In this document: positions 44,770-60,380 of the stretch, in pieces | How the letters are laid out: every line of letters begins with the position of its first letter | Position numbering within the stretch: position 1 is the stretch's first letter | Assembly (NCBI RefSeq): GCF_001636055.1 | Contig: NZ_CP011789.1 | Location: forward strand, 1,984,001-2,048,000 | Length of the DNA stretch: 64,000 nucleotides | Direction of reading: 5' to 3' | From: Pseudomonas putida | GTDB lineage: Bacteria; Pseudomonadota; Gammaproteobacteria; Pseudomonadales; Pseudomonadaceae | Program-made: the position numbers and the translations under genes | Notes under the pieces: model-generated | What the model was told of the DNA's origin: nothing | The model's input: only the letters and a program-made list of their open reading frames with translations | Databases searched by the model: none

Positions 44770-44934
44770 ATGAGCAACGTACCTCCAGCAAGCAGCGGTG
44801 GCGGCGCAGACGCAGCAATCGCCAAGATGGAAGCCACTTTCAACATGGCTATCGAGAAGTCGGCCCAGATCACCGAGCTGACCACTGCCAAGAAGGCTGA
44901 GCTCGACGCCACCAAACAGCGTCCGCAGAACTGA
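44770..44934 (+). CDS. 54-residue T3SS leader-gene product, candidate needle/pilin
   Basis: Small protein MSNVPPASSGGGADAAIAKM... of 54 residues, below usual gene-calling size limits. The start has a strong GAAGGAG ribosome-binding site. After a Gly/Ser-rich N-terminus the chain is a single Ala/Lys/Glu-rich amphipathic helix (EATFNMAIEKSAQITELTTA), with no cysteine and no signal peptide. Small size, helix, polar composition and first place in a T3SS operon suit a secreted filament subunit (SctF/HrpA-type) or a small chaperone. No family match is recognised. 72 bp before the sctD start. Confidence 0.65.
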   Translation: MSNVPPASSGGGADAAIAKMEATFNMAIEKSAQITELTTAKKAELDATKQRPQN

Positions 44935-45006
44935 CGTTGTGCCTTGCGGGCGGGGGTTGCTCCGCCCGCATGTCTTGCAACGATGCATTTTTCGGCAAGG
45001 GCCTGA

Positions 45007-45975
45007 ATGGCCGTTGCCCGTGGTATTCACGGTGGTGCCCCGCCCATGACAGCCCTTACCGCTCTGGCCGCCGTCACCGGTGGCGCGACAGCCTCCAAGC
45101 CGGTACTCAGCGTCACCCAGGGTCTGCACCAGGGTGGCCGGATCAGTCTGGACGGCACCCAGTACACCTTCGGCAGCACACCTGATGCCGACTTCATTCT
45201 CAATGACCCGGGCGTCGAGCCCCGCCATCTGGTATTGCGCCTGGCAGACGGCAAGGTCGCAGTCGAGGCCGTGGGCGGCGAAGTGCGGGTCGAAGACCCG
45301 CAGGGGCGGGCGATCATCGTTCCGCTCGGCAGCGGTTATCGCGCTCAGTTGCCGCTGCGTATCGCCTTGGGCGAGGCGCAGTTGAGCCTGGAGCACGAAC
45401 AGCCCGCGCGCGCCGCTGCCGCAATCGCACAGCCCCAGCACGCCTCGGCACTCACCCGCACCCACGTTGCGCTGGCGCTGGGCCTGATGCTGATCTGCGC
45501 CTTCGCCTACGCCATGCGTGGCGAGCCACCCAAACCCCTGGCCGCCAGTGTGACCCCCGTACCGCGCGCGCCGCAGCTGCCTTCGCTGGCGCAGGCCCAT
45601 CAATGGCTGGGGCAGCAGTTGCTGGCCAACGGCCTGGAAGGCGTACGGCTCAGCGAAGCAGGCGGGCAACTGGTGGCCGAGGGGCGCCTGGACCTGACGC
45701 AGAAGGCGCGCTGGCTCGCCGTACGCCAGGACTACGACCAACGCTACGGCCAGCAGGTGATGCTGCACAGCACGGTCACCGCCCAGGCCGATGTCGCCCG
45801 TCCACGGGTGCGCTTCCAGGCGGTGTGGTTCGGCAACAACCCCTATGTGATCAGCGAAAGCGGCAAGCGCCTCTATCCCGGCGCGGCCTTGGCCGACGGC
45901 TGGATGCTGGAACGTATCGACAGCGACCAGGTGATCCTGGCCAGGGGTGAAGAACGCTTCACCCTGACCTTATAG
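45007..45975 (+). CDS. sctD: T3SS inner-membrane ring protein SctD
   Basis: Bitopic inner-membrane protein of 322 residues building the outer of the two inner-membrane rings. An N-terminal cytoplasmic FHA-like domain (residues about 33-128: GLHQGGRISLDGTQYTFG, DFILNDPGVEPRHLVLRL), one transmembrane helix (153-170, THVALALGLMLICAFAYAM), and a periplasmic part ending in GEERFTLTL. Start ATG at 45007 has AAGGG ahead of it; ATG at 45046 (309 residues) is an alternative. By analogy HrpQ/YscD. Nine bases separate it from the next gene. Confidence 0.82.
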   Translation: MAVARGIHGGAPPMTALTALAAVTGGATASKPVLSVTQGLHQGGRISLDGTQYTFGSTPDADFILNDPGVEPRHLVLRLADGKVAVEAVGGEVRVEDPQGRAIIVPLGSGYRAQLPLRIALGEAQLSLEHEQPARAAAAIAQPQHASALTRTHVALALGLMLICAFAYAMRGEPPKPLAASVTPVPRAPQLPSLAQAHQWLGQQLLANGLEGVRLSEAGGQLVAEGRLDLTQKARWLAVRQDYDQRYGQQVMLHSTVTAQADVARPRVRFQAVWFGNNPYVISESGKRLYPGAALADGWMLERIDSDQVILARGEERFTLTL

Positions 45976-45983
45976 GACCGAGC

Positions 45984-46346
45984 ATGAGGATCGAACCGCG
46001 GCCATTGTTGCCGTCTTCCACCGAAAAGACCCCCTCCGTCGAGGCCGTACGCCCGCTACAGGCACGCCCCAACGCCCGCTTCGATGCGCTGCTGGGCAAG
46101 CGTGAAGTGGCTGGCCGCCGTTCGCTGCGCGCAGAGCTCGAGCAAGCCTGTGCCGGCGAGGAGATCAACCCGGACCTGTTCAGCGGCACCCGCGCGCTGG
46201 ACCTGTTGCAGTACCTGCTGGACGAAGTCATGCCGTCGCTGGATGCCGAACCGGAGATCCGCGAGCTGGCCGAAGACCTGCTTCGTGAAGAGATCCACCT
46301 GCGCCAGTCCCTGGAGCAGCAACGCGCCGAGGTGCAGGAACCATGA
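45984..46346 (+). CDS. Small T3SS protein in SctX position
   Basis: Hydrophilic protein of 120 residues, Pro-rich at the start (RIEPRPLLPSSTEKTPS), then helical (LLQYLLDEVMPSLDAEPEIRELAEDLL and LRQSLEQQRAEVQ, read in pieces). No membrane segment. Length and order directly before a TPR protein and sctV match yscX-yscY-yscV of Ysc-type systems (YscX is 122 residues), but I see no convincing residue-level similarity. Its stop overlaps the next start (ATGA). Confidence 0.55.
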   Translation: MRIEPRPLLPSSTEKTPSVEAVRPLQARPNARFDALLGKREVAGRRSLRAELEQACAGEEINPDLFSGTRALDLLQYLLDEVMPSLDAEPEIRELAEDLLREEIHLRQSLEQQRAEVQEP

Positions 46347-46681
46347 TGTCCCGCGAACGACACGACAGCATCGAACTGCTCAAGGGCCTGGGCGACCTCT
46401 ACCGCCGCAGCGGTCAGCCCCAGCGCGCGCTGGTGATGCTGTTGATCGCCGCGCAGATGGCCCCCCAGGACGGCACGCTGCTGCGCTACCTGGCCATGGC
46501 CTTCACCGACAGCGGCAACGCCAGCCGCGCCCTGAACGCACTCGACCGCCTCACCGAGCAGGAAGGCGAGTCACCCGGCCTGTTGCTGCTGCGCAGCCAT
46601 GCGCTGTGGCGCGGTGGGCGCAAGGACGAGGCGCGTCAGTGCTTCAAGCGCTACCTCAGTGCACGCAGGGCCGCCCGATGA
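46343..46681 (+). CDS. TPR protein in SctY position, likely T3SS chaperone
   Basis: Protein of 112 residues made of three tetratricopeptide-like helix pairs (LLKGLGDLYRRSGQPQRALVM, LLRYLAMAFTDSGNASRALN, LLLLRSHALWRGGRKDEARQ, in pieces). Cytoplasmic. YscY (114 residues) is likewise a TPR-like chaperone for YscX and binds SctV, and its gene lies directly before sctV, as here. Overlaps both neighbours by 4 bp (ATGA). Start ATG at 46343; the ATG at 46346 would also serve. Confidence 0.6.
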   Translation: MMSRERHDSIELLKGLGDLYRRSGQPQRALVMLLIAAQMAPQDGTLLRYLAMAFTDSGNASRALNALDRLTEQEGESPGLLLLRSHALWRGGRKDEARQCFKRYLSARRAAR

Positions 46682-48819
46682 GCCCGCTCGATCGCCTCAA
46701 CGGCCTGGCGCGGGCGGCGTCCCAGCGCACCGACGTGATCATCGTGTCGTTCATGCTGATGGCCATCGCGATGATGATCATCCCGCTGCCGACCTACCTG
46801 GTCGACGGCCTGATCGGCCTGAACATCGCCCTGAGCATGCTGATCCTGATCGTCGCCTTCTATATCAACCACTCGGTGGAGTTCTCGGCGCTGCCGCCGC
46901 TGATCCTGCTGAGCACCCTGTTCCGCCTGTCGCTGTCGATCACCACCACGCGGTTGATCCTGCTGCACGGCGATGCCGGCCATATCGTCCAGGCGTTCGG
47001 TGACTTCGTCATCGCAGGCCAGGTGGTGGTTGGCCTGGTGGTGTTCCTGATCATCACCGTGGCGCAGTTCGTGGTCATCACCAAAGGTGCCGAGCGGGTT
47101 GCCGAGGTGGCCGCGCGCTTCACCCTTGATGCCATGCCCGGCAAGCAGATGAGCATCGACAACGACCTGCGCAATGGCGACATCGACCAGGCCGAAGCCC
47201 GTCGCCGTCGTTCGCGCCTGGAGCGTGAAAGCCAGATGTTCGGCGCCATGGACGGTGCGATGAAGTTCGTCAAGGGCGACGCCATCGCCGGCCTGGTGAT
47301 CCTCGCGGTGAACCTGCTGGGCGGCATGCTGATCGGCATGGTCGAGCGCGACATGCCGTTCGGCACCGCAGTGCACACCTATTCGCTGCTGACCGTCGGT
47401 GATGGCCTGATCGCACAGATTCCGGCGCTGCTGATTTCGGTGGCGGCCGGCACCGTGGTCACCCGCGTCAACAGCGACGGCGCCAGCGGTGACCTGGGGA
47501 CGGAGATCATTCGCCAGTTGGGCGCCAGCCATCGTGCCTTGTTCCTCACGGCATTGATCCTGCTGGGCATCGGCCTGCTGCCGGGCTTCCCGGCGGCGGT
47601 GTTCTTCGTGCTTGCCGCAGTGCTGGCTGGCTCGGCGTTCTACCTCAAGCGTCGCCAGGCGGCCGAGCAGGCTGAGCCGGTGCAAGCGCCGGAGGCCGAG
47701 GATGAACCCCAGGTGCCAGCGGTGGAGCCCAGCGTGTCGGCGAGCAAGCCGCTCAACTGCCGCATCCTCCTGGTCATGGGGCCGGGCCTTGCGGCCAGTG
47801 CGCCGGAGCAGCCGCTGCGCCAGCGCTTCGAGGCGCTGTGCCACGAGATCCGTGGCGAGCTCGGCATCGATGTGCCCTTGGCCGCCGTGCATGTGGACGC
47901 GAAGAGCGCCGCCCAGCGCTTCGTCATCGAACTTGAAGGCGTGCCGGTGAGCGAAGGTGAACTGCCTGCCGATTGCCTGCTGCTCAGGGACGACCCGGTC
48001 AATGTGCAGTTGCTCGACATCCCGATGATCGAAGCCGACTCGCCCCTGGCTGCGCGCAGCGCCCACTGGATCGCTCGTGAGTACCAGGAGCGTCTGGAAC
48101 AGGCGGGCATCGGCTTCATGCTCCCCGAGGAAGTGCTACGGGCGACGGTCGAGCGCACCCTGCGCCGCTACGCGGCCGATTTTCTCGGCATCCAGGAGAC
48201 CCGTGCGCTGCTGGAAAGCATCGAGGGCAGCTATGGCGAACTGATCAAGGAAGTGCTGCGCAACCTGTCGTTGCAGCGCATGGCCGAAGCCCTGCGCTAC
48301 CTGGTTGCAGAGGGGGTGTCGATCCGCAACCAGCGCGCCTTGCTTGAGGCCATGGTCGACTGGGGTGGACGCGATGCCGACGCCGCGCACCTGGCCGAGC
48401 ACCTGCGCGCCGCCCTGGCCCGACAGATCAGCCACCAATATGCCGACCGCAACCGGGTGATCAGCGCCCTGGTGCTGGCGCCGGCTTTGGAGCAGCAGTT
48501 GCGCACGGGCATGCGCCGTCAGGACGGTGGCCGCGAGGCGATTCCCGAGCAGGTCAGCCGCGCCTTGATGCTGCAACTGCGCCAGGCCTGCGAGCGCCTG
48601 CCCGAAGACCGCACCAGCGTACTGCTGGTGCACCCGGAACTGCGCCGCCACCTGCGCCGCTTGGTGCTGCGTGGCGACATGGAGCTGGCCGTGCTGTCGT
48701 TCCGCGAGCTGGCCGGTGAATACAACCTGCAGGCCGTGGGCACCCTCGAACTTGGCGACACCTCTCAACGCCGCTCCACCAGCGGCGCTTCGGTCACTTC
48801 TCTGGCGAGTGCTTCATGA
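46678..48819 (+). CDS. sctV: T3SS export gate protein SctV (HrcV/FlhA family)
   Basis: Major export gate of 713 residues: about eight N-terminal transmembrane helices and a large cytoplasmic domain that forms the nonameric ring binding chaperone-substrate complexes. The family signature RFTLDAMPGKQMSIDNDL is present, as are AARFTLDAMPG and NLLGGMLIGM. The C-terminal domain from about residue 360 is complete, ending in LHPELRRHLRRL-type export-domain sequence and a short tail. Start overlaps the upstream TPR gene (ATGA), and the stop overlaps the secretin start. Confidence 0.94.
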   Translation: MSPLDRLNGLARAASQRTDVIIVSFMLMAIAMMIIPLPTYLVDGLIGLNIALSMLILIVAFYINHSVEFSALPPLILLSTLFRLSLSITTTRLILLHGDAGHIVQAFGDFVIAGQVVVGLVVFLIITVAQFVVITKGAERVAEVAARFTLDAMPGKQMSIDNDLRNGDIDQAEARRRRSRLERESQMFGAMDGAMKFVKGDAIAGLVILAVNLLGGMLIGMVERDMPFGTAVHTYSLLTVGDGLIAQIPALLISVAAGTVVTRVNSDGASGDLGTEIIRQLGASHRALFLTALILLGIGLLPGFPAAVFFVLAAVLAGSAFYLKRRQAAEQAEPVQAPEAEDEPQVPAVEPSVSASKPLNCRILLVMGPGLAASAPEQPLRQRFEALCHEIRGELGIDVPLAAVHVDAKSAAQRFVIELEGVPVSEGELPADCLLLRDDPVNVQLLDIPMIEADSPLAARSAHWIAREYQERLEQAGIGFMLPEEVLRATVERTLRRYAADFLGIQETRALLESIEGSYGELIKEVLRNLSLQRMAEALRYLVAEGVSIRNQRALLEAMVDWGGRDADAAHLAEHLRAALARQISHQYADRNRVISALVLAPALEQQLRTGMRRQDGGREAIPEQVSRALMLQLRQACERLPEDRTSVLLVHPELRRHLRRLVLRGDMELAVLSFRELAGEYNLQAVGTLELGDTSQRRSTSGASVTSLASAS

Positions 48820-50138
48820 TCGGTTCATCACGCATCGGCGCTGTGTTTCATTACCGTTTGTGGCTGGGTCTGGCCGGCATGCTGCTGTCGTTGCTGGCCT
48901 GCGCCGACGAGATCGCAGTGGGCAGCCACGGTCGCCTGGACCTGGCATCGGGCGAGGGCAGGGTGCTGCATTTCAAGGCGCCGGTGGCCTCGGTGCTGGT
49001 TGCCGAGCCGGGCATCGCCGACCTGCAAGTGGTGTCCGACGGGGTGATTTACGTGTTCGGCAAGGCGCCGGGGCAGACCAGCCTGATCGCCCTGGACGAT
49101 GCGGGCAAGCAACTGGCGGCCTTGAACCTGTCGGTGAACAACGCGACCCAGAGCGTCAGCCGTCCGCTGCAAGACCTGCATCCGGCCAGCGGCGCCCAGG
49201 TCAGCGCCGTGGGTAACCAGCTGGTGGCCAAGGGCTTGGTCAGGGATGTCGGCGAAGCCAGTGACCTCAATGCATTGCTCGACAACCAGAGCCCGGTACC
49301 AGCGGTCAACGCCGCGACCTATGCCGGTTCTGCCCAGGTCAACATCCGTGTGCGCTTTGCCGAAGTCTCGCGTTCCGAGCTGCTGCGCTACGGGGTGAGC
49401 TGGAACGCACTGTTCAACAACGGCACCTTTTCCTTTGGCTTGATCACCGGTGGTCGCCTCGCCGCCGACGCCGCCAGCGGTGCATCGAATGTCATCAGCG
49501 CCGGCCTCAGCTCGGGCAACGTCAACATCGACTCGATGCTTGAAGCCCTGCAGAGCAATGGCGTGCTGCAGATCCTCGCCGAGCCGAACATCACCGCCAT
49601 GACCGGGCAGACCGCAAGCTTCCTGGCGGGCGGTGAGATCCCCGTGCCGGTGCCGGTCAACCGTGATCTGGTGGGCATCGAGTACAAGCCTTTCGGTGTC
49701 TCGCTGCTGTTCAGCCCGACGCTGCTGCCCAACGGCCATATCGCCTTGCAGGTGCGCCCCGAGGTCAGCAGCCTGATGGGCTCGGACACCACCGACGTCA
49801 ACGGTTACCGGGTGCCGTCGTTCCGCGTGCGACGCGCCGATACCCGGGTCGAGGTCGGCAGCGGCCAGACCTTCGCCATTGCCGGCCTGTTCCAGCGCGA
49901 AAGCAGCCAGGACATGGACAAGGTGCCGATGCTCGGCGACATGCCGATCCTGGGCAACCTGTTCCGCTCCAAGCGTTTCCAGCGCAACGAGACTGAACTG
50001 GTGATCCTGATCACCCCGTACCTGGTGCAGCCGACGCGCGAGCGCGACCTGGCCACGCCCCTCGATGCCCTGCCGGGCCCTGCGACCGCTTCGGCGGGGC
50101 CACGCAGTGGCGGCAAGTTCGGCTTCTACATGAACTGA
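48816..50138 (+). CDS. sctC: T3SS outer-membrane secretin, CpaC/RhcC2-like
   Basis: Secretin of 440 residues with a signal peptide (LAGMLLSLLACADE). The N-terminal domain (KAPVASVLVAEPGIADLQVV, GVIYVFGKAPGQTSLIALD) is the pilus-secretin N domain typical of CpaC/RcpA in Tad systems, followed by a BON-like piece (GNQLVAKGLVRDVGEASDL). The secretin core shows VNIRVRFAEVSRS, LAEPNITAMTGQTASFLAGG and VPMLGDMPILGNLFRS. It lacks the N0-N1 part of HrcC/YscC; a separate NolW-like gene follows at 51504, the split seen in rhizobial rhcC1/rhcC2. Forms the outer-membrane channel. Confidence 0.88.
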   Translation: MIGSSRIGAVFHYRLWLGLAGMLLSLLACADEIAVGSHGRLDLASGEGRVLHFKAPVASVLVAEPGIADLQVVSDGVIYVFGKAPGQTSLIALDDAGKQLAALNLSVNNATQSVSRPLQDLHPASGAQVSAVGNQLVAKGLVRDVGEASDLNALLDNQSPVPAVNAATYAGSAQVNIRVRFAEVSRSELLRYGVSWNALFNNGTFSFGLITGGRLAADAASGASNVISAGLSSGNVNIDSMLEALQSNGVLQILAEPNITAMTGQTASFLAGGEIPVPVPVNRDLVGIEYKPFGVSLLFSPTLLPNGHIALQVRPEVSSLMGSDTTDVNGYRVPSFRVRRADTRVEVGSGQTFAIAGLFQRESSQDMDKVPMLGDMPILGNLFRSKRFQRNETELVILITPYLVQPTRERDLATPLDALPGPATASAGPRSGGKFGFYMN

Positions 50139-50150
50139 CCGGGAGCGACC

Positions 50151-50585
50151 ATGAAATCGATCTTTTCCATGTCGATGATCAGCGCCCCCGCAGGGCGCTG
50201 CTGGCTGTTGCCATTGGCACTGCTGGCTGGCTGCCAGACACACCTGGAGCCGGTCTCCTACTCCCCTGATTTCCAGCACAAGACACTGGCCAACGGCAGC
50301 ACCGAGATCCTGCCGGTGGAATGCCTGAAACCGGCGAGCAAGGATGACTTCGGGCTGGACGAGGACTTCGTGCCACTGCTGCCGCCGGGCTGCGCCAACA
50401 ACCTCACGCTGATGCGCATGGTCGAGCAGCCGGACGACCTGGCCCAGGGGCGGCCGACGGGCCCGACCATGGCGGCGCCCGTGGGGCGCGCCGCACAGGT
50501 CTACATCGAGGGTTACGATCGCGCCGAGCTGCGTCGACGCCAGGATGAGCAGCAAGCACGCGCCGATCGCCAGGAGAAGCAATGA
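50151..50585 (+). CDS. CpaD-like lipoprotein of the secretin module
   Basis: Outer-membrane lipoprotein of 144 residues with lipobox LLAGC (Cys28). The stretch PPGCANNLTLMRMVEQPDDL followed by GRPTGP and a Tyr-Asp end matches the CpaD pattern (GCA..NLA.MV..P.DL....GP) of Tad pilus assembly proteins, which accompany CpaC. Its place directly after the CpaC-like secretin supports a pilotin or secretin-stabilising role in this T3SS. RBS GGGAG before ATG at 50151. The Gln/Arg-rich C-terminus probably forms a helix. Confidence 0.75.
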   Translation: MKSIFSMSMISAPAGRCWLLPLALLAGCQTHLEPVSYSPDFQHKTLANGSTEILPVECLKPASKDDFGLDEDFVPLLPPGCANNLTLMRMVEQPDDLAQGRPTGPTMAAPVGRAAQVYIEGYDRAELRRRQDEQQARADRQEKQ

Positions 50586-50605: not shown

Positions 50606-51391
50606 CTAGCGACCGTCCACCAGTCCCAGCTCGCGGGCCTGGGCCTGGGCATCCGGGATCGCCTTGATGCGCCGGGCTTCGTTCAGCAGCGTCTGGCGTT
50701 CGCTGGCGGAGAGATCGTCCAGGGGCAGGCCGGCGACATCCTGCTCGCGGCCGGCCAGTACGGTGACCAGCAGTTCGTTGCGCTGGTGCCGGGGCAGGGC
50801 ACGCGGCGACTGGCCGACCACGCGCACGGTGTCCAGGGCCCGTTGCGCCTGACCGCCGAGGGCGTAGGCCAGGGCCAGGTTGCAGCGGGTATCGAGGTTG
50901 TCCGGTGCCAGCGCCAACCCCTTGCTGAAGGCCCCTTGAGCGGCCGCTGCCTGGCCGCGCAGGATCTGCGCAATGCCCAGGCGGTTCCAGGCATCGGCGC
51001 TGTTGCCACGCTCGGCCGCCTGGGTCAGGGACGTGACCGCACGCTCCAGCTTGCCCTGGCGCAGTTGGGCGCTGCCCAGCCCCAGCAGGGCGTCGAGGTT
51101 GTCCGGCTGCAGTTCAAGTGCCTGCTGGTAGGCCCGCTCGGCAGCGCGCGCGTCGCCTGCGGCCAGCGTGGTATCGCCCAGCTTCTGCCAGGCTTCGGGA
51201 TGGCGCCCAGGTTGCTGCGCGGCATTCTGGTAGAGCGCCGCAGCCGAGGCGGCATCGCCGCGCTGCTGCAGATCGCCCGCCAGGTGCATGAGGCGGTCGT
51301 AGCCCTCGTCGGCAGTGTGTGGCTGGCTGGTGCAGGCGCCGAGCAAGGTGCTGGCGATCAGAAGCAGGGTGGACGGCAAACGCTTGGGCAT
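50606..51391 (-). CDS. TadD-like TPR lipoprotein
   Basis: Lipoprotein of 261 residues (lipobox LLGAC, Cys20) with five or more TPR units (AWQKLGDTTLAAGDARAAERAYQQAL and DAWNRLGIAQILRGQAAAAQG in pieces) and a C-terminus like Tad-system TadD (LPRHQRNELLVTVLAGREQD, then NEARRIKAI). TadD helps localise or assemble Tad secretins. It is the only gene of the cluster on the minus strand, convergent with the CpaD-like gene (20-bp gap) and divergent from the NolW-like gene. Start ATG at 51391 chosen for the signal peptide; an upstream ATG at 51424 is possible. Confidence 0.78.
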   Translation of the reverse strand: MPKRLPSTLLLIASTLLGACTSQPHTADEGYDRLMHLAGDLQQRGDAASAAALYQNAAQQPGRHPEAWQKLGDTTLAAGDARAAERAYQQALELQPDNLDALLGLGSAQLRQGKLERAVTSLTQAAERGNSADAWNRLGIAQILRGQAAAAQGAFSKGLALAPDNLDTRCNLALAYALGGQAQRALDTVRVVGQSPRALPRHQRNELLVTVLAGREQDVAGLPLDDLSASERQTLLNEARRIKAIPDAQAQARELGLVDGR

Positions 51392-51454
51392 GGACAGGAC
51401 TCGAGCGGACGACTGAGTGGCCATTCTAGCGACTTGATGTGTGATTTCGACTGC

Positions 51455-51474
51455 GCTTCATACGATTTCACAGC
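51455..51474 (+). promoter_or_regulatory. Tandem repeat upstream of T3SS operon 2
   Basis: GCTTCATACG followed by ATTTCACAGC, resembling the pair at 44611-44630; TCACAGCTGTGA at 51469-51480 is itself a palindrome. It lies about 30 bp upstream of the NolW-like start, in the divergent region shared with the TPR gene. Confidence 0.4.
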
Positions 51475-51503
51475 TGTGAGCCGCGCCAGGGAGGTAATCG
51501 CCC

Positions 51504-52082
51504 ATGCGTAGCCTGCTCTGGCTCACCAGCATGCTGCTGGTTCTGCTGTCGTTGCCGGTGCGCAGCGACGAGGGCAAGGGCGAGCCCGACTGGTTCGCCC
51601 AACCCTACGCCTATGCCCTGGTCGACCAGGACCTGCGCGGCGCCCTGAGCGAGTTCGGGCAGAACCTGGAGCTGGTCGTGGTGGTCTCCGACAAGGTCCG
51701 CGGCAAGGCCCGCAGCCCGTTGCGCAGCAGCACTGCCGGCGACTTCCTCACCCAGCTGTGCGACAGCAACGCGCTGGGTTGGTACTACGACGGCAACGTG
51801 CTCTACATCAATAGCAACGATGAAGTGGCCACGCGCCTGTTCCGTCGCCAGCCCGGGTTGGACCTGGAGCAGTTGCGCGACTACCTGCAAAGCCTCGATG
51901 TGTACGGCCGCCAGTTGTCGCTGCGCCCTGGCGCCGAGCGCGACGAACTGCTGGTTTCCGGACCGCCCGCCTACCTGAACATGATCCAGCAGCACCTCGA
52001 CAACCGACCCCAGCCCGTCGCGACGTCCGCAGCCTCCCGGAGTATCCGGGTGTTCCGCGGCGCCAGCGTCAGCGATCACTGA
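51504..52082 (+). CDS. NolW/RhcC1-like N-terminal secretin component
   Basis: Exported protein of 192 residues with a signal peptide (LLVLLSLPVRS). It has the N0 domain of T3SS secretins (LRGALSEFGQNLELVVVVSD, LWYYDGNVLYINSNDE-like GWYYDGNVLYIN) and a following NolW-type N1 domain (LRDYLQSLDVYGRQLSLR, ELLVSGPPAYLNMIQQHL) but no pore domain. It would supply the periplasmic collar missing from the CpaC-like secretin, as RhcC1 (NolW) does for RhcC2 in rhizobia. First gene of the second operon. RBS GGGAGG ahead of ATG at 51504. Confidence 0.82.
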   Translation: MRSLLWLTSMLLVLLSLPVRSDEGKGEPDWFAQPYAYALVDQDLRGALSEFGQNLELVVVVSDKVRGKARSPLRSSTAGDFLTQLCDSNALGWYYDGNVLYINSNDEVATRLFRRQPGLDLEQLRDYLQSLDVYGRQLSLRPGAERDELLVSGPPAYLNMIQQHLDNRPQPVATSAASRSIRVFRGASVSDH

Positions 52083-52320: not shown

Positions 52321-52326
52321 ACGGCC

Positions 52327-53548: not shown

Positions 53549-54171
53549 GCCTGATGCCCCAATGGCAGGCCCTGCTGGGGCAGCCTCTGGCCTTTGTCGA
53601 CCGGCGCCACCTGCGCCGCTGTTTCGCCGAGAACGTCGCCGGTGCGCAGATCCAGGCATTGATCGAGTCGCCGCGTTTCCAGGCGCGCCTGCAGGCGTTG
53701 ATGCTGGCGCATTTCCAGTTGCAGCCGTTGGATCAGGTGTCGCAACCGACCGAACAGGACCTGCCGGTGTTGCTGCTGGCTCCGCAGGATTTCGCCCGTT
53801 TGCCGCGGCTGTGTGGGGCCATCTGGCACGGTGCGACCTTGGGCCGGGAAATCCGTCGCGAGGTGGTCGAGCACCTGCGCCAGGGGCTTGGGCATGAGGT
53901 CTTCGGCCTGGCCATTGCTCACCGCCAGTGGGGCGGGGCAATGGACCTGTTGCGCCAGCCTGACGATCTGCTGGCCGCCATCGACCACGACGGTGCGCGC
54001 TGCGTGCAGGCCTGGTTCGACGAGCAGCCCGCCGACCTGCGCGATTGGCTGCAACTGCGCCTGCCGCTGCCTGTGGCGGAAGGTTCGGCATCGTTGGCCG
54101 ACCCTGGCATCGTGCGTCGGGTCGCCGCCTTGCTGATGCCGTTGTCCGAGAACCGGGAGAGCGTGCAATGA
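53545..54171 (+). CDS. sctK: T3SS sorting platform accessory protein SctK-like
   Basis: Cytoplasmic protein of 208 residues, hydrophobic-leucine-rich, located between sctJ and sctL where hrpD/yscK (sctK) lies in other systems. Conserved-looking stretches are VDRRHLRRCFAENVAG and RLCGAIWHGATLGREIRREV, the second resembling the SctK core. SctK links SctQ pods to the SctD ring. Overlaps both neighbours by 4 bp (ATGA). Confidence 0.7.
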   Translation: MSLMPQWQALLGQPLAFVDRRHLRRCFAENVAGAQIQALIESPRFQARLQALMLAHFQLQPLDQVSQPTEQDLPVLLLAPQDFARLPRLCGAIWHGATLGREIRREVVEHLRQGLGHEVFGLAIAHRQWGGAMDLLRQPDDLLAAIDHDGARCVQAWFDEQPADLRDWLQLRLPLPVAEGSASLADPGIVRRVAALLMPLSENRESVQ

Positions 54172-54758
54172 GTCAGCTGCCCAGCCGTCCGGCATCGCGC
54201 ATCCTGCGTGCCGCCGAGGTCCAGGCCTGGACCGATGGACGCGATTACCTGCAGGCCGCCCGCGATGAGGCCGAACGTATCCGAGAAGACAGCGCACGCT
54301 GGCTGGAGCAGGCCCGTGCCGACGGTTTCGAGCTCGGCCGTGCCAAGGGCGCCGAGGCGGTCAGCGAGTTGCTGGCCGACACTGCCGCCAAGGTCGAGGC
54401 CTATCTGGCAGGGTTGGAAAACAGCCTGGCTGACCTGGCCCTGGGCATCGCCCGAGAAGTGCTGGAGAGCTTAGGTGACGCCGAGCGTACCGTGCTGTGC
54501 ACGCGCAAGGCGCTGGTTGCGTTTCGCCAGGACCAGGCGCTGACACTGTTCGTGCCGCGCCTGGAAGTGGAGGCCGTGCGCCGCCGCATGCACGGCGAAA
54601 CGGATGGCCTGGCGGCGATTGCCGTGGAGTCCGATGATCAATTGCAGCCCGGTCAGGCTCGCCTGAGCAGCCCGGTCGGTTCGGTGGAACTGGGGCTGGA
54701 CGCCCAGTTGCAGGCGCTGCGCCGCAGCCTGTTGCCGTTCGCCGAGGTGACGCCGTGA
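54168..54758 (+). CDS. sctL: T3SS ATPase regulator SctL (HrpE/FliH family)
   Basis: Protein of 196 residues with an N-terminal charged coiled coil (YLQAARDEAERIREDSARWL) and a C-terminal domain ending LQALRRSLLPFAEVTP. The GLENSLADLALGIAREVLES stretch is typical of the FliH/SctL family. It binds SctN as a dimer and tethers it to SctQ. ATGA overlap with sctK and GTGA overlap with sctN indicate tight coupling. Confidence 0.88.
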   Translation: MSQLPSRPASRILRAAEVQAWTDGRDYLQAARDEAERIREDSARWLEQARADGFELGRAKGAEAVSELLADTAAKVEAYLAGLENSLADLALGIAREVLESLGDAERTVLCTRKALVAFRQDQALTLFVPRLEVEAVRRRMHGETDGLAAIAVESDDQLQPGQARLSSPVGSVELGLDAQLQALRRSLLPFAEVTP

Positions 54759-56077
54759 GCCTGCAAGCGTTGTTGCCGCGCCTGCACGCGCGCCTGGGCG
54801 ATGCCCGGCCACGGCCGATGAAGGGCACCATTCGCAGCATTCGTGGTGTGCTGTTGCGCGCCAGCGTCGCCGGGGTGCGCATCGGCGAGCTGTGCCGCCT
54901 GCACGACCCGTCCAGTGGTCGCGCCCTGGCGGCAGAGGTCATCGGTTTCGATGGCGACGAGGCGATTCTCTCGCCGATCGGCTCGCTCGAAGGCTTGTCG
55001 ACGCGCACCGAGATCACCGCCACTGGCGAGGCGCTGGGGGTGAGTGTGGGCGATGGCCAGTTGGGGCGGGTCATCAGCCCCATGGGCGATTACCTCGATG
55101 GTGATCGCCAGCCGCCGCTGGGGCCGATGCGCCGCTATCCGCTGCAGGCCGAGCCCCCCGAACCCTTCGCCCGACAAGTGATCGTCGATCCGCTGTCGGT
55201 GGGGGTTCGCGCCATTGACGGGCTGCTGACCCTGGGCCGCGGCCAGCGCATGGGCCTGTTCGGCGAGCCGGGGGTGGGCAAGTCGTCGCTGCTCGCCAGC
55301 ATGGTGCGCAACACCGATGCCGACGTGGTGGTGATCGGCCTGATCGGCGAGCGTGGCCGCGAGGTGCGCGAGTTGCTCGATGTGCAGCTCGACGCCCAGG
55401 CCCGCGCGCGCACCGTGGCGGTGGTCGCCACTTCCGATCGCCCAGCCGCCGAGCGTGCCCGGGCTGCCTACGTGGCAACGGTGCTGGCCGAGTATCACCG
55501 CGACCAGGGCCGCAACGTACTGCTGCTGATGGACAGCCTGACCCGCTTTGCCCGCGCCCAGCGCGAGATCGGCCTGGCGGTGGGCGAGCCGCCGACCCGC
55601 CGCGGTTACCCGCCGTCGTTCTTCTCGGCCCTGCCGCGCCTGCTGGAGCGTGCCGGCCCCGCTGCCCGGGGCAGCATCACGGCGCTGTACACGGTGCTCA
55701 CCGAAGGTGACGCCGCGACCGATCCGGTGGCCGAGGAGGCGCGCTCGATTCTCGACGGCCATGTGGTGCTCAGCGCCGAGCTGGCCCAGCGCAACCATTT
55801 TCCCGCCATCGATGTGCTGCGCAGCCGCAGCCGCCTGATGGAGCAGGTCGCCAGCCCTGAGCAACGCCAGCTGGCCATGCGCATGCGTGAGCTGATGGCG
55901 CGGCGCAACGATATCGAGATGCTGATCCGCATCGGTGAATACGCCGCCGGCAGCGACCCACTCGCGGACGAAGCGATCGCCCGCCACGCCGCTATCGAAG
56001 CTTTCCTGCGCCAGTCGGCGGCGGAGCCGAGCGGCGCCCGACAAACCCTGGAACACATGCGCAAGGTGCTGGCATGA
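54755..56077 (+). CDS. sctN: T3SS ATPase SctN (HrcN)
   Basis: ATPase of 440 residues that unfolds and releases chaperone-bound substrates. Walker A GEPGVGKSS at residues 170-178, Walker B in NVLLLMDSLTRFARAQREIG, and the family stretch GEPPTRRGYPPSFFSALPRLLERAG. The start is GTG at 54755, overlapping the sctL stop (GTGA). All catalytic residues appear present. Confidence 0.95.
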   Translation: MSLQALLPRLHARLGDARPRPMKGTIRSIRGVLLRASVAGVRIGELCRLHDPSSGRALAAEVIGFDGDEAILSPIGSLEGLSTRTEITATGEALGVSVGDGQLGRVISPMGDYLDGDRQPPLGPMRRYPLQAEPPEPFARQVIVDPLSVGVRAIDGLLTLGRGQRMGLFGEPGVGKSSLLASMVRNTDADVVVIGLIGERGREVRELLDVQLDAQARARTVAVVATSDRPAAERARAAYVATVLAEYHRDQGRNVLLLMDSLTRFARAQREIGLAVGEPPTRRGYPPSFFSALPRLLERAGPAARGSITALYTVLTEGDAATDPVAEEARSILDGHVVLSAELAQRNHFPAIDVLRSRSRLMEQVASPEQRQLAMRMRELMARRNDIEMLIRIGEYAAGSDPLADEAIARHAAIEAFLRQSAAEPSGARQTLEHMRKVLA

Positions 56078-56090
56078 GAGAGGAGCGCCC

Positions 56091-56564
56091 ATGAAAAGTC
56101 ATGAATTGAAAAGCCTGCAGACCCTGCGCCAATTGCGTGAACAACGGGCGTCCGCACAACTGGCCGCGCAGCGCCAGCTCTGCCGCGAAACCCATGCTGC
56201 CCTCGACGATGCCCGCCAGCGGCTGTGCCTGGCGCGGGAAACCTCCGCGCTTGAGGCAGAAAAACTCTACGGTCGCTTCAGCGAGGGGCTGTCGGTCAAG
56301 GCCTGGCTCGCTGCGCAGGTGCACCTGTCGGAGCTGGAGGACGAACAGGAGACGCTGCTGGGCAACCTGGACGAGGCCCACGACTACCACCAGCAACAGG
56401 AGCAGACCCAGGAGAGCCTGCGTCAGGCCCATGTCGCTCGTCAGCGCCAGGCCGATGCCTGGGACTCCCTGGTCGAAGACCACGCCCTGGGTGAGCGCCG
56501 CATCGGGGAAGCGCAGGATGAGGGCGAAGACCTGTTTGCCCCCTTGCTGGATCTCACGCCTTGA
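56091..56564 (+). CDS. sctO: T3SS central stalk protein SctO (YscO/HrpO-like)
   Basis: Protein of 157 residues predicted as one long coiled coil, rich in Gln, Glu, Arg and Leu (LRQLREQRASAQLAAQRQLC, QQQEQTQESLRQAHVARQRQ). SctO proteins are coiled-coil stalks linking the ATPase to the export gate and are recognised mainly by position between sctN and sctQ. Start ATG at 56091 with GAGGAG ahead. No separate sctP gene lies between it and sctQ. Confidence 0.8.
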   Translation: MKSHELKSLQTLRQLREQRASAQLAAQRQLCRETHAALDDARQRLCLARETSALEAEKLYGRFSEGLSVKAWLAAQVHLSELEDEQETLLGNLDEAHDYHQQQEQTQESLRQAHVARQRQADAWDSLVEDHALGERRIGEAQDEGEDLFAPLLDLTP

Positions 56565-57589
56565 CCCTCCAGACCACCGAGGTGCCCGCCGACGCGCTGG
56601 CCTTCGAGCACAGCCTGGAGCGCCTTGATCCGCAGTGGCAGGCCCTGCACCAGCGCCTGCATCGGCCGCGCCAGCCCTGGCAGGGACAGTTGGGCGGGGC
56701 GCCGCTGAGTGTCGCCTGGGCGTCGAGTGGTGCGGCGATGGATGAACCCCAGCTTGAGTTGTGGCTGTCGCTGGGCGACTCGCCCGTGCAACTGCGCGTG
56801 CCAGCCCGTGCCCTCGACCTGCTCGGCTTGCCCGAGGGGCTGTTATTGCCGAGCCTGCCCGCGGCGCTGTTGCTGGAGCAGGCGCTGCTGACGCTGATCG
56901 CGCCGCTGGAGCACCTGTTCGCGCAGCCGATCCACGTGCTCGATCGCGCGCTCACGCAGTGCGTCGAATTGGCGCCACTGAGCCTTGGCCTGGAGGTACG
57001 CCTGGGTGACAGCGCGCTGGCGATGCAATTGCGCTGCGATGCCGCGACCTGGGCCGAGATTGCCGTGTTGCTGGAGCAGCATGCCGCGCCCATGCCCCAC
57101 GACCTCGGTGGCCTGGCGCTGACGCTGGGCGTCGACGGCGGCGAGGCCTGGCTCAGCCTGGTCGAGTTGCGCAGCCTGCTGCCGGGCGATGTGGTCATGC
57201 TCGATCCCTGGCCGGACGATCATCTGCGCCTGCACCTGGACGACCAGTGGCAAGCCCGTGTGCAGCGCGACGGACAACGCCTGCAGCTAATCGAACCCCC
57301 TATCACCGCGCTTGCCTTGAAGGAGCGACACATGAGCGAACAGGGCACCGGGCCGAGCCTGGACAGCAGCCTTGACGAGCTGCAACTGAAATTGGTCTGC
57401 CAGTTCGGCAGCGTCGAGTTGAGCCTCGCGCAACTGCGCGAGCTGGGCGTGGGCAGCGTGCTGGAGCTGGCGCCGCGCATGCACGAAGGCGTCGACCTGA
57501 TGATCAACGGCCGCCGCGTCGGCCAGGGTCAACTGGTGAAGATCGGCGACGGCCTGGGCGTGCGCCTGCTGAGCTTTGCTGCATCATGA
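56561..57589 (+). CDS. sctQ: T3SS sorting platform C-ring protein SctQ
   Basis: Protein of 342 residues forming cytoplasmic pods under the injectisome. A weakly conserved N-terminal region is followed by a first SpoA-like domain and a clear C-terminal SpoA domain (LKLVCQFGSVELSLAQLREL, LMINGRRVGQGQLVKIGDGL). It appears to start with TTG at 56561, overlapping the sctO stop (TTGA); no other start fits the N-terminal frame. It includes an internal start for a short C-terminal product. Stop overlaps sctR (ATGA). Confidence 0.88.
   Translation: MTLQTTEVPADALAFEHSLERLDPQWQALHQRLHRPRQPWQGQLGGAPLSVAWASSGAAMDEPQLELWLSLGDSPVQLRVPARALDLLGLPEGLLLPSLPAALLLEQALLTLIAPLEHLFAQPIHVLDRALTQCVELAPLSLGLEVRLGDSALAMQLRCDAATWAEIAVLLEQHAAPMPHDLGGLALTLGVDGGEAWLSLVELRSLLPGDVVMLDPWPDDHLRLHLDDQWQARVQRDGQRLQLIEPPITALALKERHMSEQGTGPSLDSSLDELQLKLVCQFGSVELSLAQLRELGVGSVLELAPRMHEGVDLMINGRRVGQGQLVKIGDGLGVRLLSFAAS
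57319..57589 (+). promoter_or_regulatory. Internal ribosome-binding site and start for SctQ-C
   Basis: Within sctQ, GAAGGAG at 57319-57325 lies 6 bp before an in-frame ATG at 57332 (codon 258). Translation from here gives an 85-residue SpoA-domain product, MSEQGTGPSLDSSLDELQLK onward. The spacing is ideal and better than that of the sctQ start itself. SctQ-C products are known in Yersinia (YscQ-C) and Salmonella (SpaO), and P. syringae has separate hrcQA and hrcQB genes. Confidence 0.75.
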
Positions 57590-58242
57590 GTGGCTACCAG
57601 CCAAACCTGATCGAGATCATCCTGGTCGTCGCCTCCATCGGCTTGATTCCGCTGGCGGTGGTGACTCTGACCGGGTTCCTGAAGATCTCCGTGGTGCTGT
57701 TCCTGATCCGCAACGCCCTGGGTGTGCAGCAGACCCCGCCGAACCTGGTGCTCTATGGCATCGCGCTGATCCTGTCGGTGTACGTCACCACGCCGGTGAT
57801 CGGCGACATGTACCGCGCGGCGCAGAGTCATGGCCTGCAACTGGAGAATGCCGAGCAGTTGAAAGAGCTGGGCGAGGCGATCAGGCCGCCCTTGCAGGCG
57901 CACCTGTCGCGCTTCGCCAACGAGAGCGAGCGCGGTTTCTTCGTCCAGGCCACGCAGAACGTGTGGTCCGAAGAGGCCCGCGCCGAGCTGCGTGACGACG
58001 ACCTGGTGGTGCTGATCCCGGCGTTCGTCAGCTCCGAGCTGACGCGGGCGTTCGAGATCGGATTCCTGCTGTACATCCCCTTCTTGGTGGTCGACCTGCT
58101 GGTGTCCAACGTGCTGATGGCGATGGGCATGTCGATGGTGTCGCCGACCTTGATATCGATACCGCTGAAGCTGTTCCTCTTCGTTGCGCTGAGCGGCTGG
58201 TCGCGCTTGATGCATGGTCTGATTCTGAGCTACGGGAGCTGA
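57586..58242 (+). CDS. sctR: T3SS export apparatus protein SctR (HrcR/FliP)
   Basis: Core export-gate membrane protein of 218 residues. Family stretches are TGFLKISVVLFLIRNALGVQQ (read as FLKISVVLFLIRNALG), ALILSVYVTTPVIGDMY, and IPAFVSSELTRAFEIGFLLY with IPFLVVDLLVSNVLMAMGM. Together with SctS and SctT it forms the helical pore. ATGA overlap with sctQ. Confidence 0.95.
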   Translation: MSGYQPNLIEIILVVASIGLIPLAVVTLTGFLKISVVLFLIRNALGVQQTPPNLVLYGIALILSVYVTTPVIGDMYRAAQSHGLQLENAEQLKELGEAIRPPLQAHLSRFANESERGFFVQATQNVWSEEARAELRDDDLVVLIPAFVSSELTRAFEIGFLLYIPFLVVDLLVSNVLMAMGMSMVSPTLISIPLKLFLFVALSGWSRLMHGLILSYGS

Positions 58243-58246
58243 GCCG

Positions 58247-58516
58247 ATGGGCCAGGACGTGTTCCTTTCGTTGATGAAGCAGGCGCTGATGACGGTGTTG
58301 CTGCTGTCGGCGCCAGCGCTGGGGGTGGCGATCATCGTCGGCCTGAGCGTGGGTCTGTTGCAGGCGCTGACGCAGATCCAGGACCAGACCTTGCCGCAGG
58401 TGGTCAAGCTGGTGGCGGTGCTGCTGCTGATCGTCTTCGTCGGCCCGCTGCTCGCCGGGCAGGTGATGGGGCTGGGCAACCAGGTGCTGGACAACTTCGC
58501 GCTGTGGACGCGCTGA
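58247..58516 (+). CDS. sctS: T3SS export apparatus protein SctS (HrcS/FliQ)
   Basis: Two-helix membrane protein of 89 residues with LLLSAPALGVAIIVGLSVGL, QALTQIQDQTLPQVVKL and VGPLLAGQVMGLGNQVL, all FliQ-family hallmarks. Start ATG at 58247, 4 bp after sctR. The 7-bp gap to sctT places it inside the same transcript. Confidence 0.94.
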   Translation: MGQDVFLSLMKQALMTVLLLSAPALGVAIIVGLSVGLLQALTQIQDQTLPQVVKLVAVLLLIVFVGPLLAGQVMGLGNQVLDNFALWTR

Positions 58517-58522
58517 CCGGGC

Positions 58523-59341
58523 ATGGACGCAGGTTTCGTCAATGCCTTCCTGGAGATCGCCTACCCGGTGATCAGTTCGGCCGCGCTCTCCACGGCCCGC
58601 GCCATGGGCGTAGTGGTGATCACCCCGGCCTTCAACCGTCTGGGCCTGACCGGGATGATCCGCACCTGCGCCGCCGTGGCGATCTCGGTGCCGATGTTCC
58701 TGCCGGTGTTCTCGGCCTTCACCGCTACCCCCGAGCTTGGCGGGTTCTGGCTGGCGGGCTTGTTGATCAAGGAGTTCCTGGTCGGATTGGTGGTCGGTTT
58801 GTTGTTCGGCATCCCGTTCTGGGCCGCGGAAGTGGCGGGGGAACTGATCGACCTGCAGCGTGGCTCGACCATGGCGCAACTGGTGGATCCGCTGTCGTCG
58901 GGTGAATCCGGGGTGATGGCGACCTTGCTCACGGTGATGCTGATCGCGCTGTACTTCATGTCGGGTGGCTTCATCCTCATGGTCGATGGCTACCTGCACA
59001 GTTACCAGTTATGGCCGGTGACCCAGTTCACGCCGTTGTTCGCCGGTTCTGCGCTGACGGCGGTGCTGTCGATACTCGACCAGGTGATGCGCATCGGGGT
59101 GCTGATGGTGTCGCCGTTGCTGATTTCGTTGCTGATCACCGACCTGATGCTCGCCTACCTTTCGCGCATGGCGCCGAGCCTGCACATCTTCGACCTGTCG
59201 CTGCCGGTGAAGAACCTGTTCTTCACCATTCTGATGGTGATCTACATCGGCTTCCTGGTGCCGCTGATGCTTGATCAGCTTGCGGAGTTCCGCGGCACGG
59301 TCGGGGTGCTGCAGAGCCTGGTGGAGGGGGGGAATGGCTGA
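58523..59341 (+). CDS. sctT: T3SS export apparatus protein SctT (HrcT/FliR)
   Basis: Membrane protein of 272 residues with about eight hydrophobic segments. Family stretches include RAMGVVVITPAFNRLGLTGM, EFLVGLVVGLLFGIPFWAAE, GELIDLQRGSTMAQLVDPLS and LMLAYLSRMAPSLHIFDLSL followed by PVKNL. Completes the SctR5-S4-T1 export core. Its end overlaps the sctU start by 8 bp. Confidence 0.93.
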   Translation: MDAGFVNAFLEIAYPVISSAALSTARAMGVVVITPAFNRLGLTGMIRTCAAVAISVPMFLPVFSAFTATPELGGFWLAGLLIKEFLVGLVVGLLFGIPFWAAEVAGELIDLQRGSTMAQLVDPLSSGESGVMATLLTVMLIALYFMSGGFILMVDGYLHSYQLWPVTQFTPLFAGSALTAVLSILDQVMRIGVLMVSPLLISLLITDLMLAYLSRMAPSLHIFDLSLPVKNLFFTILMVIYIGFLVPLMLDQLAEFRGTVGVLQSLVEGGNG

Positions 59342-60380
59342 CACCAGCGAAGAGAAGTCGCAGCCGGCAACGGACAAGAAACTCAAGGACGCACGCAAGA
59401 AGGGGCAGGTCGCCAAGAGCCAGGACCTGGTATCGGGGGTGGTGATCCTGCTCTGCACCCTGTGCATCGCCATCCTGGCGCCACGAGCCAAGGCCCAGGT
59501 CACGGCGCTGGTGGACCTGACTGCGCAGATCTACATCGAACCCTTCGCCACGGTGTGGCCGCGCCTGCTCGATACCGCCGAGCAACTGCTGATCGGCATC
59601 ACCCTGCCGGTGATGGCGGTGACGGTGACGGCCGTGGTGCTGACCAACCTGGTGACCATGCGCGGGTTGGTGTTCTCGGTCGAACCGCTCAAGCCGGATT
59701 TCAAGCGCATCAACCTGGCCGAGGGTTTCAAGCGCATCTTCGCCATGCGCAACGTCGTGGAGTTCCTCAAGGGCCTGGTCAAGGTGCACTTGCTGGGGCT
59801 GGCGTTCTACGTGGTCGGGCGCCATGCGCTGCAGGCGCTGATGGAGTCGTCGCGGTGTGGGCCCGAGTGCCTGCAGTCGACCTTCCTGCTGGTGCTCAAG
59901 CCGCTGGTGTTCACTGTGCTGGCGGCGTTTCTGGTGCTGGGGGCGGCGGATGTGCTGATGCAGCGCTGGCTGTTCGGCCGCGACATGCGCATGACCCGCA
60001 GCGAGCAGAAGCGCGAGCGCAAGGATATCGATGGCGATCCGTTGATCAAGCGCGAGCTGCGCCGCCAGCGCCAGGAGATGCAGGCCATGGCGACCAAGCT
60101 GGGACTGGGCCGGGCGTCGTTGATGGTGGGCGTGGCCGGTGGCTGGGTGGTGGGTTTGCGCTATGTGCGCGGGGAGACGCCGGTGCCGGTGGTGGTGTGC
60201 CAGGCCGAGCCTGAGGAGAGCGCGCGGATGCTTGGCGAAGCTGCGCAACTGGGGATCGCCCATGCCATGGATGCCCGCCTGGCGGCCGAGCTTGCCCGGC
60301 GCACCGTGGCGGGGGATCCGGTGCCGGACAGCACCTTCCAGGCGGTAGCGGATCTGCTGGTGGCTGCGCGGTTGATCTAA
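59334..60380 (+). CDS. sctU: T3SS export switch protein SctU, NPTH motif missing
   Basis: FlhB/HrcU-family protein of 348 residues: N-terminal TSEEKSQPATDKKLKDARKK and GQVAKSQD, four membrane segments, a linker (MTRSEQKRERKDIDGDPLIK, RRQRQEM) and a cytoplasmic domain ending in SctU-like LAAELARRT..GDPVPDSTFQAVADLL. In the family the cytoplasmic domain self-cleaves between Asn and Pro of an NPTH motif just before YAVALRY. Here the equivalent site reads VAGG-WVVGLRY (codons 267-270, 60132-60143). Everything around it is conserved and the frame is open, so the protein is probably functional but uncleaved. Start ATG at 59334. Confidence 0.92.
   Translation: MADTSEEKSQPATDKKLKDARKKGQVAKSQDLVSGVVILLCTLCIAILAPRAKAQVTALVDLTAQIYIEPFATVWPRLLDTAEQLLIGITLPVMAVTVTAVVLTNLVTMRGLVFSVEPLKPDFKRINLAEGFKRIFAMRNVVEFLKGLVKVHLLGLAFYVVGRHALQALMESSRCGPECLQSTFLLVLKPLVFTVLAAFLVLGAADVLMQRWLFGRDMRMTRSEQKRERKDIDGDPLIKRELRRQRQEMQAMATKLGLGRASLMVGVAGGWVVGLRYVRGETPVPVVVCQAEPEESARMLGEAAQLGIAHAMDARLAAELARRTVAGDPVPDSTFQAVADLLVAARLI

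Follow-up and report, generated by a model that had tools for sequence, protein, structure and literature searches.

A Tad-type outer-membrane trio as the proposed exit of a subgroup II Rhc type III secretion locus in Pseudomonas putida

The secretin RhcC2 of rhizobial-type (Rhc) type III secretion systems (T3SSs) has been proposed to originate from Tad pilus loci (Abby and Rocha 2012, PMC3459982; here and below, what we cite from PMC3459982, PMC3574062, PMC3973906, PMC4311626, PMC10499894 and PMC13170226 refers to the available parts of these papers). In subgroup I, RhcC2, Y4xK and Y4yS comprise a Tad-type secretin, an adjoining CpaD-homologous lipoprotein and a TadD-like tetratricopeptide repeat (TPR) lipoprotein; CpaD homology was noted for mlr8762, and genetic evidence with the TadD-like Y4yS homologue of M. 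loti indicated that its loss lowers RhcC2 (Mercante 2015, PMC4311626). Subgroup II clusters were described as lacking y4yS, and Gazi 2015 (PMC4500985) asked why a conserved secretin should have a non-conserved pilotin. Here we analyse a T3SS cluster of Pseudomonas putida that lies in a 64,000-nucleotide window (the whole stretch of DNA that was analysed, positions 1,984,001 to 2,048,000 of contig NZ_CP011789.1), extends from a 54-amino-acid (aa) open reading frame (ORF) at 44770 to sctU at 60380 and was confirmed as a rhizobial-type T3SS of Rhc subgroup II. Its closest described relatives are the T3SS-2 clusters of P. syringae and NGR234, which likewise have a split secretin, an opposite-facing TPR ORF between hrcIIC1 and hrcIIC2 and a SctY-like TPR ORF before hrcIIV (Gazi et al. 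2012, PMC3574062). In pNGR234b, unlike in this locus, the secretin and TPR genes share a strand. The available main text of that 2012 paper does not contain the words CpaD, Tad or lipoprotein and treats the TPR ORFs among chaperones and regulators. Among the matches listed from open-licence PMC, which holds no preprints and few subscription journals, we found no paper on a TadD-like pilotin or a CpaD-like partner for subgroup II; the names PSPPH_2522 and PSPPH_2523 occur in two papers there.

Since the rhizobial hybrid is already in print (PMC3459982, PMC4311626, PMC4500985), a hybrid T3SS is in itself no novelty. The first-pass annotation of this DNA had proposed one, and the core of that idea holds, with the corrections that the CpaD protein is reduced and that only an outer-membrane trio was taken. 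New are six observations. In subgroup II loci, the genes for the secretin, the CpaD-like protein and the TPR protein make up a single unit, with few exceptions. Of all proteins in the host genome, the TPR protein matches alphaproteobacterial-type TadD best, over nearly its full length. An antisense tadD is common in CpaD-bearing Tad loci too. The CpaD-like protein keeps the C-terminal CpaD segment without the domain that precedes it. The secretin has an invariant GF tail, located where RcpA binds TadD, from which two listed loci deviate. Finally, none of the trio was seen in the R. etli subgroup III stretch examined.

We put the probability at roughly two in three that the outer-membrane exit of this system is a Tad-type three-protein subassembly set on a subgroup II T3SS and operating as follows. 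The RhcC2 secretin would form the channel, with a variable linker that ends in the GF tail. The TadD-like TPR lipoprotein would take this tail into its TPR groove, bring the secretin to the outer membrane and allow its assembly, as TadD does for RcpA. The short CpaD-like lipoprotein would bind the secretin in the manner in which CpaD has been modelled on CpaC, and RhcC1, as the leftover N0-N1 part of a former T3SS secretin, would join the Tad-type secretin to SctD. We infer these binding, piloting and anchoring steps from homology and gene context, and on the same grounds the Tad outer-membrane subassembly was likely recruited as a block, the donor presumably being a Tad locus of alphaproteobacterial type.

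The secretin carries the CpaC N domain (PF13629, 68.8 bits) and the secretin domain (PF00263, 151.6 bits), both over cut-off. Its best match in the PDB is RcpA of the P. aeruginosa Tad pilus (8odn, 183 bits), with MxiD and InvG at 27.6 and 24.5 bits. A tree built from 74 secretins grouped subgroup II, NGR234 T3SS-2 included, into one clade (16 rows, support 100/97), which, like subgroup I (3 rows, 100/100), lay with the Tad secretins; seven T3SS SctC rows were set apart from the Rhc and Tad secretins (100/99), with long branches flagged. A second tree of 52 rows, without the NGR234 row, put the secretins of both subgroups together with 20 Tad rows on the same side (100/98); all 19 of these Tad rows that were examined for CpaD have a match, the twentieth being from a Vibrio plasmid. 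In this tree subgroup II formed a clade with Inquilinus and Paracoccus (100/99), in which Inquilinus branched first, followed by Paracoccus on a long branch and then, with weak support (93/51), by a Hyphomicrobiales metagenome-assembled genome together with an Ochrobactrum. Inquilinus, Paracoccus, Hyphomicrobiales and Ochrobactrum are alphaproteobacteria. The earlier claims that the secretin has a CpaC N domain and groups with Tad and not with SctC of the HrcC/YscC type were thus borne out by profile and tree alike.

The two Rhc secretin groups did not join in either best tree, which favours an alternative that we regard as possible if doubtful, namely that subgroups I and II captured Tad exits independently and from different Tad loci. 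It also draws on differences between them: the CpaD of subgroup I is full length (187-220 aa) and the TadD-like gene of pNGR234a lies elsewhere, behind rhcV, whereas subgroup II has a short CpaD and an adjoining TPR gene in a contiguous trio. However, a single clade of both subgroups was not rejected in the approximately unbiased test (p 0.19 for the 74-secretin tree, 0.281 for the 52-row tree), and one acquisition was inferred by Abby and Rocha (2012, PMC3459982). A tentative variant, which we are inclined to doubt, is that two Rhc lineages separately took a CpaC-CpaD-TadD block from CpaD-bearing Tad pili. In subgroup II, CpaD would then have been trimmed to the segment that binds the secretin, with the secretin's GF tail serving as docking peptide for a TadD-like pilotin. 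If two such block captures did occur, they would make the outer-membrane complex of Tad pili an exit module that is self-contained and portable.

The other half of the split secretin is the NolW/RhcC1-like protein, which covers positions 2-160 of TIGR02516, the N-terminal part of that family, and matches the N-domains of EscC, MxiD and InvG in the PDB. It is a remnant of the N0-N1 part of a T3SS secretin, the part that the first-pass annotation had assigned to it, so that a T3SS-type N part (C1) and a Tad-type C2 are both present. RhcC1 has been proposed as the link between the Tad-type secretin and SctD (Abby and Rocha 2012, PMC3459982).

The TPR lipoprotein, encoded on the minus strand, has at least three TPR stretches and a lipobox (LLGAC, Cys20); a lipobox, by a loose pattern, is found in all 75 TPR proteins of the named loci described below. 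We compared it with a profile built from nine TadD proteins, all encoded in CpaD-bearing Tad loci and none from a T3SS (two from named alphaproteobacteria and seven from Pseudomonadota outside the window's class, which were taken as alphaproteobacteria). Since TPR profiles match one another widely, ranking over the whole genome is the better test. The TPR lipoprotein came first of 12 matches in the host genome, with 75.2 bits over profile positions 13-247 of 269; the runner-up scored 49.9 bits. The TPR gene in the Tad locus that the host itself carries reached 28.3 bits. Alignment by hhalign to the nine TadD proteins extended over 252 columns (probability 99.65%, E 4.4e-25) and took in a shared C-terminal SP.A..R.RQN..LV region. 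On pNGR234a, Y4yS also hits this TadD profile (E 1.3e-22). These results agree with the TadD-like assignment first made from the bare sequence and make the TPR lipoprotein a pilotin candidate for subgroup II. The structure model of the protein is confident, with a predicted local distance difference test score (pLDDT) of 90.8.

Two comparisons count the other way: the match to six gamma-type TadD proteins is high too (E 2.3e-20, 207 columns), and in a fold search PilW, PilF, MamA and eukaryotic TPR proteins tied, with the TadD chain not among the matches listed. Queries of the PDB by sequence, whether with gamma TadD proteins or the TPR protein itself, returned general TPR matches and are not diagnostic. 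It is conceivable, if unlikely, that only the secretin and the adjoining CpaD-like gene came from Tad and that the TPR lipoprotein was added separately from a PilF/PilW-type lineage, its likeness to TadD being convergent. Against this stand the lead of 25 bits over the rest of the genome, the near full-length coverage, the C-terminal region taken in by the alignment, and an opposite-strand layout that is common in CpaD-bearing Tad loci.

The CpaD-like lipoprotein of the trio is reduced. Its lipobox is LLAGC, with Cys28 as the lipidated residue; GCANNLTLMRMVEQPDDL, which the first-pass annotation quotes for this lipoprotein, is not the lipobox but the conserved C-terminal CpaD segment. This segment bears the motif C..GCA..NL..M...DL. 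For comparison we used 24 CpaD proteins, 21 from Tad loci and 3 from subgroup I. PF09476 is matched by all 24 of them and by 18 of 20 CpaD-like relatives at E<=0.01, and hhalign relates the CpaD-like set to the CpaD set over 69 columns on the C-terminal side (probability 97.3%, E 2.3e-11). The distance from the lipid Cys to the next conserved Cys is 30 residues in the window protein and 22-48 in 20/20 CpaD-like proteins, compared with 103-140 in 23/24 CpaD proteins; the domain between lipobox and C-terminal segment is therefore gone. On its own, the window protein stays below the curated cut-offs of both PF09476 (22.9 bits, E 7.9e-5, cut-off 31.1) and TIGR02522 (16 bits, cut-off 94.45). With the domain missing as well, it is not a full CpaD. 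Further points tell against the assignment: its AlphaFold2 model is poor (pLDDT 65), a search of solved structures with the CpaD-like profile gave no match (best E 0.17), and the exception among the 24 CpaD proteins, from the Tad locus L152, has an equally short CpaD (127 aa). The first-pass annotation had called the protein CpaD-like and named failure against CpaD profiles as the outcome that would undo this; such failure is seen at the curated cut-offs and not in the profile-profile comparison. Among the matches listed, the nearest named relative is in P. wayambapalatensis RW3S1 (97% identity).

In Caulobacter, CpaD is required and has been modelled as spokes around CpaC, and its N-terminal part is predicted to be OmpA-like and was proposed to hold peptidoglycan (PMC13170226). 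The simplest reading of the alignments is that the T3SS form may have kept the part of CpaD that touches the secretin.

The secretin tail offers a possible counterpart to the pilotin. In P. aeruginosa, assembly depends on the last four residues of RcpA, which bind in the groove of TadD (PMC10499894). In 48/48 secretins (47 of subgroup II and one from Paracoccus), the chain ends with GF plus three residues, G and F being invariant and preceded by a variable linker. A GF or GY tail is found in 77 of the 79 listed loci introduced below; L248 ends in GLIIK and L262 in GLIFK. Among the comparison loci, GF or GY falls within the last six residues of 23/23 CpaD-linked secretins versus 2/16 others, counted by eye, and two subgroup I secretins end in LGFIIE. 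None of 10 SctC proteins has it, these being the 10 of 20 loci (L094-L113) with an open frame bearing a secretin motif.

The CpaD-like gene occurs in 40/398 Pseudomonas genomes, that of the window included, and in 39/39 fetched Pseudomonas neighbourhoods the CpaD-like, TPR and C1 genes have the same order and strands, with the TPR gene between the other two and on the other strand. We further collected 79 distinct named loci from 90 confirmed stretches among the matches listed, with a 12-kb stretch taken for each. They come from Pseudomonas, Stutzerimonas, Halomonadaceae, rhizobia, Ochrobactrum, Inquilinus and Bordetella genomosp. 4; the two samples overlap in species and are not independent. 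The secretin gene adjoins the CpaD-like gene in 79/79 of these loci, and the TPR gene lies next to the CpaD-like gene in 75/79, antisense in 69 and sense in 6. In three of the four loci without a TPR gene, at most 504 bp of contig remained. Past the trio, Pseudomonas and Halomonadaceae have rhcC1, whereas rhizobia have sctU; the three genes therefore stay together while their surroundings change. The trio is present in fetched loci of P. syringae, P. amygdali, P. cerasi and pNGR234b. By contrast with the earlier suggestion that a whole Tad assembly module was recruited, only the outer-membrane trio travels together: CpaB, CpaE, CpaF, TadB and TadC gave no match in the 12-kb stretches of the 79 loci (blastp, E<=1e-4). 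In a 45-kb stretch of the subgroup III locus of R. etli p42d, no secretin, CpaD or TadD profile matched at E<=0.1 and a C1 relative was found (E 1.9e-6), in line with the report that subgroup III lacks rhcC2 (Gazi, PMC4500985).

Several single loci bearing on the spread of the trio are recorded here. The trio recurs in the subgroup II T3SS of Bordetella genomosp. 4 (L269). A Klebsiella pneumoniae plasmid (L077, NZ_CP035384.1 17987-47171) bears a rhizobial-type subgroup II T3SS, and two further Klebsiella plasmids, NZ_CP142387.1 and NZ_CP099261.1, match the secretin and the CpaD-like gene. Plasmid p3 of Paracoccus sp. TOH (L082) has a divergent T3SS in which a CpaC-type secretin and a CpaD-like gene are followed by a transglycosylase. 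On pSymA of S. meliloti (L086, 8905-11150), a Tad-type secretin stands in a trio with a small lipoprotein-like ORF and a TPR lipoprotein, and no pilus gene is annotated in the 19-kb stretch.

The Tad pilus resembles this locus in secretin family, tail and the TadD-like and CpaD-like partners, as described for RcpA-TadD (PMC10499894) and CpaC-CpaD (PMC13170226), and many CpaD-bearing Tad loci share its gene order and strands. It differs in that the present locus is without pilin, motor and alignment genes, serves a T3SS, has a short CpaD and has gained RhcC1. We fetched 39 comparison loci, 36 Tad and 3 Rhc; in 23 of them a CpaD match adjoins the secretin. Where tadD was detected, it was antisense in 10 of 11 CpaD-bearing Tad loci and sense in 9/9 Tad loci without CpaD; the other 16 fetched Tad loci had no tadD detected in the stretch. 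Three loci of one family (L180-L182) run cpaB, cpaC, cpaD, cpaE and then antisense tadD, which is the T3SS order apart from cpaE. The Tad locus L152, whose short CpaD lies at 1911-2294, has CpaB, CpaE, CpaF, TadB, TadC and TadD matches.

The host genome, a single contig of 5.81 Mb, has a Tad locus of its own near 5.53 Mb (5523500-5537500), in which CpaB, a secretin, CpaF, TadB and TadC are encoded together with a TadD-like gene in sense orientation. At E<=0.001, Flp and TadE gave matches nowhere else in the genome. The T3SS secretin shares 32% identity with the secretin of that locus and so is not a recent copy of it. It is very improbable that the two lipoproteins serve this pilus or some other envelope function and stand beside the T3SS by chance, since the Tad locus has its own TadD-like gene, no CpaD match was found in it with two CpaD-type profiles, and in 75/79 listed loci across several bacterial families both genes accompany the T3SS. 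A PF09476 search of the whole genome at E<=0.001 found nothing and missed the window's CpaD-like gene as well, which makes it a weak control; the two profiles run on the host Tad stretch provide a better one.

Other observations weigh against a Tad-type trio acting on this T3SS. In L248 (Ochrobactrum sp. RH2CCR150), no TPR gene was found within 6 kb though the secretin and CpaD-like gene are present; the aromatic tail residue is lost there too. L262 lacks the aromatic residue and keeps the TPR gene, so the coincidence in L248 of a lost aromatic residue with no TPR gene found is suggestive only. The Paracoccus plasmid gave no TadD-like match, its stretch beginning at the record's first base, and the K. 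pneumoniae plasmid NZ_CP035384.1 has at the place of the TPR gene an unannotated, transposase-like ORF. A sense tadD is present in three CpaD-bearing Tad loci (Azospirillum, Pseudosulfitobacter and L152); with the first two added, the antisense count becomes 10/13. In Caulobacter the TadD homologue CpaO is dispensable (PMC13170226), and a TadD-like gene therefore need not be a pilotin. Finally, transfer in a single block is a likely reading and not a proven one.

If the Tad-type subassembly proposed above is correct, subgroup II gains a definite pilotin candidate, answering the y4yS gap of PMC4500985, and a CpaD-like partner lipoprotein that the papers found do not discuss, and the GF tail becomes a short, testable docking peptide. 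More generally, the outer-membrane part of Tad may be portable as a unit, such that secretion systems can take it over and use a remnant of their old secretin as adaptor.

The remainder of the cluster is listed in gene order in Table 1. Nothing unusual marks its inner-membrane rings, export gate or ATPase, and profiles from Pfam and NCBIfam found the export core SctD, J, L, N, O, Q, R, S, T, U and V complete; a needle, SctP, a SctW gatekeeper and a translocon were not identified in the cluster with family profiles. The genes named in the first-pass annotation all lie where it had put them, and two of them, SctI and SctK, have no family match. From its position we take the ORF after sctD to be SctX. 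The true start of sctU is probably further down than 59271. A single weak sigma70-like site lies on the minus strand (51450-51423) between the TPR and rhcC1 genes. The 54-aa ORF, which has no Pfam or NCBIfam match, sits at the place that nopA has in the subgroup I order nopC-nopA-rhcD-rhcV-y4yS (PMC3973906) and is a needle or pilin candidate by position.

Table 1. Features of the T3SS cluster and its upstream regulator (window coordinates).
Feature	Position	Strand	Basis
LuxR-type (GerE) regulator, upstream of cluster	43570..44355	+	PF00196 64.2 bits
54-aa ORF, directly 5' of sctD	44770..44934	+	67-94% identity in 39/39 Pseudomonas loci
sctD	45007..45975	+	PF16697, PF21934, PF23893 over cut-off; TIGR02500 77.8 bits, under cut-off 86
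SctX position	45984..46346	+	39/39 Pseudomonas loci; no family match
SctY chaperone (TPR)	46343..46681	+	NF052415 79.1 bits, cut-off 70
sctV	46678..48819	+	TIGR01399 770.6 bits over cut-off, on longer ORF
RhcC2-type secretin (CpaC N domain and secretin domain)	48816..50138	+	PF13629, PF00263
Secretin C-terminal GFYMN tail, proposed pilotin-docking peptide	50121..50135	+	conservation; RcpA analogy
Short CpaD-like lipoprotein ('mini-CpaD')	50151..50585	+	hhalign to CpaD set; PF09476 in relatives
TadD-like TPR lipoprotein, proposed pilotin	50606..51391	-	TadD profile; lipobox at Cys20
Intergenic region, 112 bp, between divergent TPR and rhcC1 genes	51392..51503	.	sequence
RhcC1/NolW-like protein, N0-N1 part of T3SS secretin	51504..52082	+	TIGR02516 82.5 bits
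Conserved 71-aa ORF after rhcC1	52105..52320	+	39/39 Pseudomonas loci; no family match
SctI position	52327..52761	+	position, size, conservation only; no family match
sctJ	52766..53548	+	TIGR02544 213.2 bits over cut-off (longer ORF); PF01514 92.1 bits
SctK position	53545..54171	+	position, size, conservation only; no family match
sctL	54162..54758	+	PF06635 over cut-off; TIGR02499 63.8 bits, under cut-off
sctN ATPase	54755..56077	+	PF00006, PF18269 over cut-off; TIGR02546 582.8 bits, under cut-off 604.75
sctO	56091..56564	+	PF07321 25.8 bits, under cut-off 28.8
sctQ	56561..57589	+	PF01052 over cut-off; TIGR02551 92.6 bits, under cut-off 100.8
sctR	57586..58242	+	TIGR01102 272.7 bits over cut-off
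sctS	58247..58516	+	PF01313 over cut-off; TIGR01403 74.1 bits, under cut-off 76.5
sctT	58523..59341	+	TIGR01401 191.5 bits over cut-off
sctU	59271..60380	+	PF01312 over cut-off; TIGR01404 264.1 bits, under cut-off 358

Beside sctU, on the minus strand (60587-63976), lies a gene for a protein of 1129 aa with nothing over Pfam cut-off and nothing in NCBIfam. Relatives with 37-86% identity stand on the same strand behind sctU in 10/39 Pseudomonas loci, many of the stretches stopping short of this position, and a further relative (35%) is found in a Halomonas locus (L079).

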